Under the pieces are notes generated by a model, which saw only the letters and a program-made list of their open reading frames with translations, did not search any database and was not told the DNA's origin. Shown one piece after another: positions 21,703 through 59,940 of a stretch of 64,000 nucleotides of DNA. Each line of letters starts with the position of its first letter. The first letter of the stretch is position 1. Both the position numbers and the translations under genes were made by a program. The DNA is from an uncultured Bacteroidales bacterium (lineage in GTDB: Bacteria > Bacteroidota > Bacteroidia > Bacteroidales > Paludibacteraceae): contig CADAZU010000011.1 of assembly GCA_902792535.1 (NCBI GenBank), forward strand, positions 35,706 to 99,705, in the 5' to 3' direction.

Positions 21703-21760
21703 GGCGTTTTTCCCTGTTTGAGTATAGTGTAACCATAGTGTGATTCGCTTACTAACCTAC

Positions 21761-21911
21761 GAATCACCTATGAATCACCTATGAATCACCTATGAATCAC
21801 CTATGAATCACCTAAGAATCACCTAAGAATCACCTAAGAATCACCTAAGAATCACCTAAGAATCACCTAAGAATCACCTAAGAATCACCTAAGAATCACC
21901 TAAGAATCACC
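21761..21911. repeat. 11-bp tandem array, 13 full units and a partial
   Basis: Four units of GAATCACCTAT (21761-21804), nine of GAATCACCTAA (21805-21903) and a partial GAATCACC. The two unit types are blocked, not mixed. The 11-bp period is close to one helical turn. It is non-coding, between the receptor stop and the Nudix promoter. On the opposite strand the unit reads GATTCTTAGGT, 9 of 11 bases equal to the unit of the array at 60167. Confidence 0.95.
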
Positions 21912-35150: not shown

Positions 35151-35790
35151 TTATATTGGAGGCGGTAAATTGGCTTGCCAATAGTGCTCGTTTGGGTGGG
35201 AAAAGGCGTTGTTTGGGGTGGAAAAGGCATTCAGAACCGTGTTTGAGGCGGTTTTGAAGGTGGGTTGCCGGAGACGGAAAGGTTGGTCCGCGGAGACAGG
35301 TTCAAAAGAGACGGGTTCCGGTTCGGCGGCTTTCTTGCGCTCGGCTTGGAGTTGGCGGTAGATGGAGACGTATGTGTATTGGTAGAAACGGGCAGCCTTT
35401 GACGACCGTAAAATAATGGTTGAAGAAGCGTACGCGCCAAGTGAGTGCCTCCAAGGAATGGTCATGCTCGATGGCGTGCGCCAGCTTTTGCGCCTCTTTG
35501 ATCAACTCGCGGTTGGCGATACAGGCGGCTGACCAATGGGTCGGGAAATGGTACGTATAGAGTTCGAAGAGTCCGTCACGGAAGCGCGAAGGGCGAACGA
35601 CGATGCGCTTTTTGTAGTGCTGTCCTTCTTTTCGTGTGTCCATGGCGCCCCACAGGGCTTTCACTCCCACGCAGGCATGAAAATAGTGCACACCCCGTTT
35701 GTGAGGCGTGGCTGACCGCGGAAGTGAGACAAAATCGAATCCATCCCATTTCAAGCAGCTAATTACCTTTGTTTTCAAGTGCATTGCCAT
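35151..35790 (-). pseudogene. Unknown repeated-family gene, copy 2, with a frameshift
   Basis: The first reading frame runs from ATG 35790 to 35302 and is nearly the same as the left-edge gene over its first 88 residues. Near 35400 the sensible sequence moves to another frame: after NHYFTVV the continuation KAARFYQYTYVSIYRQLQAE and a Pro/Glu-rich tail lies in the frame ending at 35151. One missing base in an A-run would explain this. The restored protein would have about 213 residues. It could be a decayed copy or a sequencing error. Function unknown; neighbouring sequence is repeat-rich. Confidence 0.6.
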
Positions 35791-35935
35791 GGCGCGTAAT
35801 GTGCTGTGTTTCAGTCTTTTGTGTCGTAGTATAAATTAACAAAGTCTAGGACACCCACGAAGGTACCCTTATGCGGACCTTATTTAGGGTCGATTTGGAC
35901 TTCATTTCGGACTTATTCGGACTTCATTTCGGGTG

Positions 35936-35967
35936 CAAAGGTACAAAAAATATTTGACATATGCAAA
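35936..35967 (-). promoter_or_regulatory. Promoter for the frameshifted repeated gene
   Basis: Minus strand TTTG (35964-35967), about 20 bases, TACCTTTG (35936-35943). The leader to ATG 35790 is about 140 bases; the promoter closely resembles the one ahead of copy 1. Confidence 0.6.
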
Positions 35968-36032
35968 TTTTTGGGGATGAAAAATGTCAAAAAAGGAAGG
36001 GCGGTGGATAACATCCACCTGAAATAGACATA

Positions 36033-36260
36033 GAGGACGGCAGAGCCGTGTCCGGATTAGATCCGGACGTAATGGACGAAGGGCTCGTGCAAGAATGCGC
36101 GAGAAATGCAAAGAGAGGACGGCGGAGCCGTGTCCGGATCAAATCCGGACGTAATGGACGAAGGGCTCGCGCAAGAATGCGCGAGAAATGCAAAGAGAGG
36201 ACGGCAAAGCCGTGTCCAAATAAAATTTGGACGCAATGGACAAAGTACGAACCGGCGGAA
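36033..36260. repeat. 82-bp tandem repeat with hairpins and compensatory stem changes
   Basis: Units start at 36033, 36115 and 36197 (the last partial). Each has GGC-NNN-GCC, then an 8-bp stem with a 3-base loop: GTCCGGAT/ATCCGGAC in units 1 and 2 (36050-36068, 36132-36150) but GTCCAAAT/ATTTGGAC in unit 3 (36214-36232), so both arms changed together. Units 1 and 2 also carry CTCGYGCA-AGAA-TGCGCGAG. It is not plausibly coding. It lies between the frameshifted gene and the raiA promoter. Confidence 0.92.
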
Positions 36261-36309
36261 AGAATCTTACAAAAAAAATCGTAATATATACAAATTTTTC
36301 AGATGTTTA

Positions 36310-36341
36310 TTTGCATAAATGCAAAAAAAGTTGTATCTTTG
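36310..36341 (+). promoter_or_regulatory. Promoter for raiA
   Basis: TTTG 36310-36313, 20 bases, TATCTTTG 36334-36341. The leader to ATG 36411 is about 60 bases. Confidence 0.65.
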
Positions 36342-36410
36342 CAGCCGATTTTGAAACTTTTGTTGAAAGTATAAAATAAATCTTGTTTAACCTTTAAAAT
36401 AAATCGTATT

Positions 36411-36686
36411 ATGAATCTGACAATTAATGCAGTAAATTTCGAGATGGCAGAGAAACTCGAACAGTTTATCGAGAAGAAAATGAATCGCTTTGAGCGTCAT
36501 TTGAACGCCGACGACAAAGTGGAGGTCCGCATGAGCGTGATCAAACCGCAGACCAACGCCAACAAAGAGGTGAAAATCCGTATCGCAGGTATGTTCGCGG
36601 AGAAGACAGCCGACTCGTTTGAGGAGGGAATCGACGCTTGCTTGGCAGCCCTGGAGGGACAATTAGAGAAACGTAAAAATGCTTAA
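36411..36686 (+). CDS. raiA: Ribosome hibernation promoting factor (short form)
   Basis: 91 residues, the short HPF/YfiA form. The pattern MNLTINAVNFEMAEKLEQFIEKKMNRFERH, a central V-VRMSVIKP strand and C-terminal DSFEEGIDACLAALEGQLEK helix is the usual beta-alpha-beta-alpha fold. It binds the 30S decoding region to silence or dimerise ribosomes in stationary phase. It has a clear promoter and is the first gene of a run that continues into a lipoprotein and two pectinesterases with almost no gaps. Confidence 0.88.
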   Translation: MNLTINAVNFEMAEKLEQFIEKKMNRFERHLNADDKVEVRMSVIKPQTNANKEVKIRIAGMFAEKTADSFEEGIDACLAALEGQLEKRKNA

Positions 36687-54654: not shown

Positions 54655-54686
54655 TTTGCGTATATTAGAAAAAATGTGTACCTTTG
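54655..54686 (+). promoter_or_regulatory. Promoter for gcvP
   Basis: TTTG 54655-54658, 20 bases, TACCTTTG 54679-54686; the leader to ATG 54725 is about 30 bases. Confidence 0.65.
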
Positions 54687-54724
54687 CACTCGCAAAGGTT
54701 TTGAAAATAAAAATATCATACCAT

Positions 54725-59529: not shown

Positions 59530-59940
59530 CCCTCCCCCCTTAGGGGCTTCGTTGGCTTCGCGTGGCGTAAGCCCCGCGTTCTTTGTTTATTGTCGCGGCA
59601 TCGAATGCCGCGTTGTTATTAGCATTGTTTATTGTTCCGGCATATTATGCCGGCTTTTCCGTCCCGCGGTGTCCTGTGTCCGGCATCTCTGTGTCCGGCA
59701 TCTTTGTTGCCGGATCTCTCCCCCTTTCTCCTCCTCCCTTCCCCCTCTTCCCTTTCTCTCCCTTCCATGCCCCTCACCGTCCCCCTCTCTCCCCCCTTAG
59801 GGGGCCGGGGGGCTTTTCTTTGTCTCTTTCTGTCGCATTTTTGCGACCGGTGGTATAGCGTTTATGCCTCGCGCACCTTTGCGCGAGCCACTTTGTTTAT
59901 TGTGTCCAAATTGAATATGGACGCGGCGTAGCCGCCCTAA
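59530..59940. repeat. Palindrome-rich intergenic island
   Basis: Stems with short loops include CGCGGCAT-CGA-ATGCCGCG (59594-59612), CCGGCAT-ATT-ATGCCGG (59637-59653), GTCGCA-TTTT-TGCGAC (59832-59847), CTCGCGCA-CCTT-TGCGCGAG (59868-59887), GTCCAAAT-TGA-ATATGGAC (59904-59922, one mismatch) and GCGGC-GTA-GCCGC (59923-59935). TTTGTTTATTGT precedes the first and fifth, and ATTGTTTATTGT the second. A CCCCCCTTAGGGGG element with GGGGGGCTT follows at about 59790-59818. No gene is credible here. Confidence 0.85.

Follow-up and report, generated by a model that had tools for sequence, protein, structure and literature searches.

Rickettsia palindromic elements (RPEs) are about 100-150 bp long and insert in frame inside protein genes. 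Two of them, RPE-4 and RPE-6, were classed with the CGTC repeats, which, in the sections of the published description drawn on here, have stems of 8-9 bp with a C/TGTC tag at one end, loops of 4-5 nt, tails that are mostly CCA, and AT pairs at the first and second stem positions in that paper's numbering (PMC3733652, Di Nocera et al. 2013). These CGTC REPs comprise subsets with alternative complementary stem bases, occur as intragenic copies, rarely form clusters, have no associated transposase gene, and were reported also from Bacteroidetes (PMC3733652). Compensatory changes in the hairpins of REPINs have already been published (PMC3116915), patterns consistent with template switching were reported for RNA genes (PMC8794818), and palindromic RNA candidates were reported in human-gut Bacteroidetes (PMC8040213), in each case according to parts of the papers cited. 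A literature search, which had partial coverage and is weak evidence of absence, found no paper on hairpin repeats of the Paludibacteraceae.

We describe herein a family of hairpin repeats found in a window of 64,000 nucleotides (the whole stretch of DNA that was analyzed), which is part of contig 11 of a 2.37-Mb draft genome. With a probability of roughly two in three, these repeats are short, probably non-autonomous, REP-like palindromic mobile modules in Paludibacteraceae from the guts of ruminants and other animals, with the CGTC-type REPs and the RPEs as their nearest relatives in kind. Like the CGTC REPs as described in part of the source (PMC3733652), they are short palindromes with alternative complementary stems and intragenic copies, and no transposase gene was found with them when the Y1 family was searched; the 8-bp stem of hairpin H1 also fits the published range. 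Unlike the CGTC REPs, H1 has a loop of 3 nt (that of hairpin H3 is 4 nt), AT pairs close the loop, arrays are frequent, and YGTC lies within a longer tag about 7 nt outside the stem rather than at one end of it, the two being compared by description. CGTC-type REPs are the nearest published kind, but the modules are not filed as a member of it because loop length and tag position differ. The likeness to RPEs is one of insertion habit; the modules are about 33 bp and stack, whereas RPEs are longer. Compared with REPs and REPINs and their REP-associated tyrosine transposases (RAYTs), as portrayed in parts of PMC3116915 and PMC6006769, they are likewise dispersed hairpins and mainly intergenic, but no RAYT association was found, a GTAG/GTGG foot at the hairpin was not found in the aligned copies, and the tags in the window run in one direction rather than as inverted doublets.

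Tandem Repeats Finder placed an 82-bp repeat (2.6 copies, 90% matches) at 36032-36245, in agreement with the three units described in the sequence-only reading. On the minus strand, each unit consists of a tag, TTYGTCCATT, followed by H1 (8 bp) and then by H2 (5 bp, ACGGCnnnGCCGT on that strand), which directly abuts H1; H3 lies between units (Table 1). The switch from GTCCGGAT/ATCCGGAC in units 1 and 2 to GTCCAAAT/ATTTGGAC in unit 3, and the different loop of each H1, are as that reading had them; H2 and a further, related module were absent from its list. It had also held that a C-to-T change in H3, whose consensus is CTCGYGCA/TGCGCGAG, would keep a G-U pair, which is true of the plus strand, whereas the minus strand has A-C instead. 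Folding the minus strand of 36030-36245 as single-stranded DNA gave -51.3 kcal/mol versus a shuffle mean of -22.4 (z -9.4), and none of 200 shuffles folded as well. The array is flanked by a broken, repeated open reading frame (ORF) on the minus strand and by an S30AE-domain gene on the plus strand, and these two genes point away from each other.

Table 1. Positions of hairpins, tags and related modules in the window and, where a locus label is given, elsewhere
Feature	Position	Strand	Sequence	Remark
H1, unit 1	36050-36068	-	GTCCGGAT-3 nt-ATCCGGAC	loop TAG
H1, unit 2	36132-36150	-	GTCCGGAT-3 nt-ATCCGGAC	loop CAA; stem common in other species
H1, unit 3	36214-36232	-	GTCCAAAT-3 nt-ATTTGGAC	loop AAA; commonest H1 stem of this genome
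H2, unit 1	36037-36049	-	ACGGCTCTGCCGT	
H2, unit 2	36119-36131	-	ACGGCTCCGCCGT	
H2, unit 3	36201-36213	-	ACGGCTTTGCCGT	
H3, first copy	36084-36103		CTCGTGCA/TGCGCGAG	one non-Watson-Crick pair
H3, second copy	36166-36185		CTCGCGCA/TGCGCGAG	perfect
Tag beside H1, unit 1	36071-36080	-	TTCGTCCATT	
Tag beside H1, unit 2	36153-36162	-	TTCGTCCATT	
Tag beside H1, unit 3	36235-36244	-	TTTGTCCATT	
Further, related module	36003-36019	-	GGTGGAT-AAC-ATCCACC	
Tag of further module	36023-36032		TATGTCTATT	
Second H1-H2 module	59891-59939	+	H2 = GCGGC/GCCGC	H1 with one mismatch
H3-type hairpin beside second module	59868-59887		CTCGCGCA/TGCGCGAG	
Other stem family	L096:1789-1808		ATCCGCCA/TGGCGGAT	
Other stem family	L097:756-775		ATCCGCCA/TGGCGGAT	
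Other stem family	L102:17489-17508		ATCCGCCA/TGGCGGAT	
Other stem family	L108:16002-16021		ATCCGCCA/TGGCGGAT	
Other stem family	L109:15842-15861		ATCCGCCA/TGGCGGAT	

Several other repeats were noted. An 11-bp tandem repeat, ACCTAAGAATC, is present in 14 copies at 21755-21911 of the window, and several hairpin modules in other parts of the genome (L004-L008) have similar 11-bp arrays (CACCTATGAAT...) upstream of them. Another hairpin, ATCCGCCA/TGGCGGAT, occurs in five copies, together with two that have ATCGACCA/TGGTCGAT, making a further stem family with paired change. Inverted repeats ACCTTTGC/GCAAAGGT are found at promoter-like TAnnTTTG regions (window 54680-54699, L105, L106 and L116); TAnnTTTG is the Bacteroidota -7 motif, and these are perhaps promoter-linked palindromes.

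Searching the genome with the array by blastn returned 11 places, the array itself included. A covariance model, built from the 12 rows of a first alignment (A1) and covering one stem subfamily, found 19 matches in the same genome at E<=0.1. In a sample of the genus, 52 of 61 genomes (this one included) had a match at E<=0.1, with a best E<=0.001 in 47 and a maximum of 93 matches per genome, whereas in a sample of 120 genomes of the family only four matched at E<=0.001, three of the same genus (again including this one) and one of another genus. A DNA pattern search of named genomes yielded 88 stretches, whose record titles read Paludibacteraceae, Bacteroidales or Bacteroidia except for one Clostridia and one Acidobacteriota, many naming rumen or other animal gut samples. 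Carriage by phages was considered and rejected, as no match was obtained at E<=0.01 in 50,697 phage records. Over 396 kb of the richest genome, a stem of at least 6 bp was present at only 5 of 21 strict tag sites, a share that weighs against the mobile-module account, and over the same 396 kb the covariance model found 14 modules at E<=0.1; the tag test therefore misses copies. A general excess of hairpins was considered separately and rejected: perfect stems of at least 8 bp numbered 153 in 840 kb versus 84 in one first-order resample, which is modest.

The sequence-only reading had proposed that covariation be tested on all copies of the repeat. Applied to copies from this genome and from relatives, such a test revealed paired changes far beyond chance. 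A1 comprised 11 modules of the genome itself (three of the array and eight from elsewhere) and one from a relative; the unit 3 stem of H1 is perfect in 6 of the 11 other rows and is present in one more with a mismatch in the 3' arm. Both sides had changed in 4 of 13 pairs (7 cells), and 2 of 156 cells were unpaired, while none of the 156 had reached a standard pair through a change in a single arm. The changes were AA/TT to GG/CC, T-A to C-G in one copy, and, in the H2 at 59.9 kb, A-T to G-C. None of 500 shuffles equaled the covariation score. On one measure, the number of further pair types, A1 fell below the shuffles (4 versus 4.9) because shuffling creates G-U types.

Stem bases were then left free. 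In one test, the pattern fixed the tag end, TCC/GGA, AT/AT and a 3-nt loop, leaving two bases free per arm; 80 of the 88 stretches gave 95 matches, or 89 after removal of duplicates. Both free pairs were Watson-Crick in 85 of the 89 copies, versus about 6 expected with random bases. Among these 85, GG/CC (30 copies, on which the entry for unit 2 in Table 1 is based), GA/TC (27) and AA/TT (25) prevailed, and GC/GC, GT/AC and TG/CA occurred once each, the last in a Clostridia-labeled record without the tag that may be a chance match. The four non-complementary copies were two G-T and two A-C. In another test, sites were required to have ATnnnAT after a tag carrying no more than one mismatch, and pairing was scored only afterwards. 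Of 338 distinct sites, 197 had all five outer pairs, 43 had four and 98 had three or fewer, whereas a reversed-tag control gave five pairs at 9 of 103 sites and four at 8. The 197 fully paired sites carried 39 distinct five-base stems; 108 of them, with 33 stems, started other than with TCC. Many loci had been retrieved through a match to the TCC..GGA subfamily (GTCC..GGAC), so the stem frequencies describe a non-random sample. Under a freer hairpin search, the loop was also 3 nt in nearly all stems of at least 6 bp. Among 62 tag sites with the closing form CT-nnn-AG, all five outer pairs were present at 7, a small number. Chance as the source of the paired change was rejected by the A1 shuffles, the free-base test, the reversed-tag control and the z-score of the fold. 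Comparison of these sequences supports the view that the palindrome itself is conserved across copies, its arms changing together.

This pattern can be read in more than one way. Template switching, in which replication transfers a mutation from one arm to the other, could maintain palindromes with no need for selection. As it predicts, intermediates are nearly absent (4 of 89, and none one-sided in A1) and mismatches have no strand bias, and the multibase compensatory change without G-U steps resembles that of template-switch RNA stems, although the cases in the sections of PMC8794818 considered are histories of RNA genes, whereas the change here is between dispersed copies. We regard this explanation as rather unlikely in view of 17 pairs of modules at different loci whose 60-base flanks were at least 75% alike (in two cases both copies came from one genome, and certain pairs have a copy in common). 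Their 85 stem pairs included six one-sided and two both-sided changes; differences were seen at 10 of 51 loop positions and at about 199 of 2040 flank positions. Both two-sided changes fell in one pair (L062/L173) at the 75% limit, which is probably not orthologous and is better seen as separate copies; apart from it, no in-place double change was found among the 17 pairs. Moreover, loop bases on the tag strand are skewed to T (265 of 591), which argues against free inversion of the loops. What is documented is paired change from copy to copy rather than within one site. Stems that are kept more than loops, with change across copies and not over time, speak for the spread of ready-made stem subfamilies.

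Modules also occur inside protein genes. Perfect copies flanked by 400 bases on both sides numbered 168, and 21 of them lay well within frames of at least 200 codons, some of these frames being certainly spurious. The best example is a gene encoding a DUF3987 domain (E 5e-34), homologs of which were present in 28 of 61 genus genomes. From 33 loci (30 plus three found earlier), 27 were resolved and six were not, and as two pairs represented the same place, 25 distinct homologs remained. The spacer between two conserved blocks was 5 codons in three of them, 16 in eight, 27 in three, 38 in two, and of other lengths in nine; i.e., it followed 5+11k codons in 16 of 25, where chance would give about 2. 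A hairpin of at least 6 bp was present at this site in 18 of the 25 homologs, compared with 51 of 500 control windows taken from other parts of these genes. Stems at the site include GTCCGAAT, CCCGAAT, CCGGAAT, GCCGGAT, GGCGAAT, CCCGCAT and CTCCGCG, and tag and hairpin run along the gene direction in L137 and L269 and against it in L273 and L296. As with Rickettsia-type palindromic elements, in-frame copies thus have homologs in a short empty form, the three at 5 codons. In a second gene (L081, L153, L165 and L185), two variable places hold in-frame copies, and L185 lacks the insert at one of them.

Movement of the modules is inferred because they are dispersed and because filled and empty sites exist; on the other side stand the nine lengths off 5+11k, two 16-codon inserts (L283 and L284) without a 6-bp hairpin, and the filled/empty pairs of the DUF3987 site, where a target-site duplication and an exact insertion boundary were not found, the best pair being 75% alike at the DNA level. 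Outside this site, the spacing of hairpins is sometimes other than 33 bp. The most similar pair of homologs, L278/L295 (86% in the flanks), has one stem in common, GCCGGAT, with most of the array different. L137:561-1841 and its homologs present the DUF3987 linker as a hot spot for modules, the array content of which turns over faster than its flanks; the insert of L295 also carries the ATCGACCA/TGGTCGAT hairpin. The number of matches to the DUF3987 gene was correlated with module copy number over 61 genomes (Spearman 0.40, p 0.001), which may reflect the load of mobile elements. Reading frames through the modules were 43-93% open per frame versus 53-66% in shuffled modules, and all six were open in 8% versus 3%; there is no clear case of a built-in coding property.

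Alternatively, the repeats might be RNA elements under selection for structure, i.e., hairpins of transcripts such as 3'-end stabilizers, processing sites or weak terminators, whose fold is kept by compensatory mutation. Their position gives this idea some substance. In a survey based on crude gene calls, 124 perfect copies were placed in larger loci (1.79 Mb), with 73 in small loci, the window array among them, left out; 53 of the 124 were inside called ORFs and 71 outside, though only 12% of bases are outside. The 63 copies with a gene on each side lay in 36 co-directional, 16 convergent and 11 divergent gaps, the convergent ones being mildly enriched (16 of 63 versus 82 of 545, p 0.045). 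Of the 36 copies in co-directional gaps, 28 had the tag on the sense strand and 27 lay nearer to the upstream stop, preferences that weigh against mobile modules insofar as they also fit an RNA role. The greater divergence of loops than of stems in the similar-flank pairs points the same way. Placement relative to genes also resembles that of published REPs and is compatible with a role in RNA.

The types of mismatch argue otherwise. If one strand were under RNA selection, G-U should clearly outnumber A-C; single mismatches in the stems were 15 G-T/T-G, 10 A-C/C-A and 18 others, so that there was no strand-specific sign of RNA wobble (p 0.42 for 15:10 on the tag strand); only 15 of 1200 pairs were G-T. 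The absence of one-sided pair changes from A1, the copies within called ORFs (crude as the calling was), the two directions at the DUF3987 site, and the location of the window array between divergent genes likewise count against RNA elements, which we consider unlikely. In the window, no Rfam family matched at its gathering score, so a known RNA family was rejected; the three hits at 35900-36420 (E 0.98-2.2) were all far below it. A T run as in an intrinsic terminator was not found after H1 in the array, and weak terminator-like sites after H2 numbered two versus 0.6 expected. The sequence-only reading had taken paired change as a sign of selected structure or of a copying mechanism that regenerates palindromes. 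What stands of it is that the palindrome itself is kept, with arms that change together over many copies; selection at the RNA level is not supported by the wobble test, and regeneration in place was not seen in the 17 similar-flank pairs.

That reading had also suggested looking for a REP tyrosine transposase gene elsewhere in the genome. The sole PF01797 match there is below the cut-off (20.2 versus 23 bits). Over the genus, 23 of 61 genomes have PF01797 matches, which do not track copy number (Spearman 0.10, p 0.45, with copy numbers from a model of one subfamily and many genomes incomplete): there are none in the genomes with 93, 63, 33 and 25 hits, and the genomes with 30 and 28 hits have a single match apiece. 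No transposase gene tracking the family was thus found in this search of the Y1 family in 61 genomes. Mobilization by a RAYT is disfavored and appears very unlikely, although a RAYT too diverged for the PF01797 model, or one missing from the incomplete assemblies, may have escaped the search. In its favor, the modules share the general build of REPs, and the PF01797 match of this genome is a 398-aa ORF weakly like REP_Tyr_transpos (L079:2006-3202, G000 contig 62; 34 bits versus a cut-off of 80). Judging from translations, this ORF sits between apparent type I restriction genes. The hairpin at one end, CTTCGG/CCGAAG, and that at the other, CTCCGG/CCGGAG, differ by a paired change, but copies of the present family are absent from the flanks checked for this gene; the aligned copies lack the foot, and the two richest genomes have no Y1 match.

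Another candidate was the repeated ORF that lies upstream of the array (35151-35790, minus strand). It would encode about 230 aa if intact, is split between two frames in the window, and has no Pfam match above the cut-off and no NCBIfam match. Elsewhere in the genome there are a fragment and five further copies with 92-96% identity over 84 aa; the ORF is present in 20 of 61 genus genomes, its count being weakly correlated with copy number (Spearman 0.27, p 0.037). It was rejected as the mobilizer, since no match at E<=1e-6 occurs in the six genomes with most hits. For the modules, neither an enzyme nor a transposition intermediate was found in this analysis, which, like the lack of a target-site duplication, tells against mobility.

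In our preferred account, a module consists of a near-constant tag (TTYGTCCATT plus 2-3 nt) and then a hairpin usually closing with AT-nnn-AT, the stem letters of which are nearly free but complementary. The modules are dispersed, with many exactly complementary stems, lie between and inside genes, leave homologous sites filled or empty, and occur in either direction. They may spread as single-stranded DNA hairpins processed by some enzyme, each stem variant presumably traveling as a ready-made palindrome, so that a comparison of copies would give the impression of joint change in the two arms. At the DUF3987 coding site, lengths differ mostly in 33-nt steps. The array in the window would then be a tandemly repeated composite of three hairpins carrying two stem subfamilies. 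A bolder version, which we hold to be quite unlikely, is that only the tag and self-complementarity are strictly inherited, the second arm being made by fold-back synthesis on the first at copying. If so, one step would fix a mutation of either arm in both, and fresh stem subfamilies would keep arising, bypassing mismatched states.

The family seems unusual in how many stems share one tag, in how few wobble pairs it has, and in the stacking of in-frame modules with empty homologs. The protein linker provides an example of a hairpin array turning over faster than the surrounding gene. Covariation of paired bases usually counts as strong support for a functional RNA. Dozens of exactly complementary stems in dispersed DNA repeats, part of them in frame within proteins, with few wobbles and no strand bias, thus provide a natural test of paired change without RNA selection.
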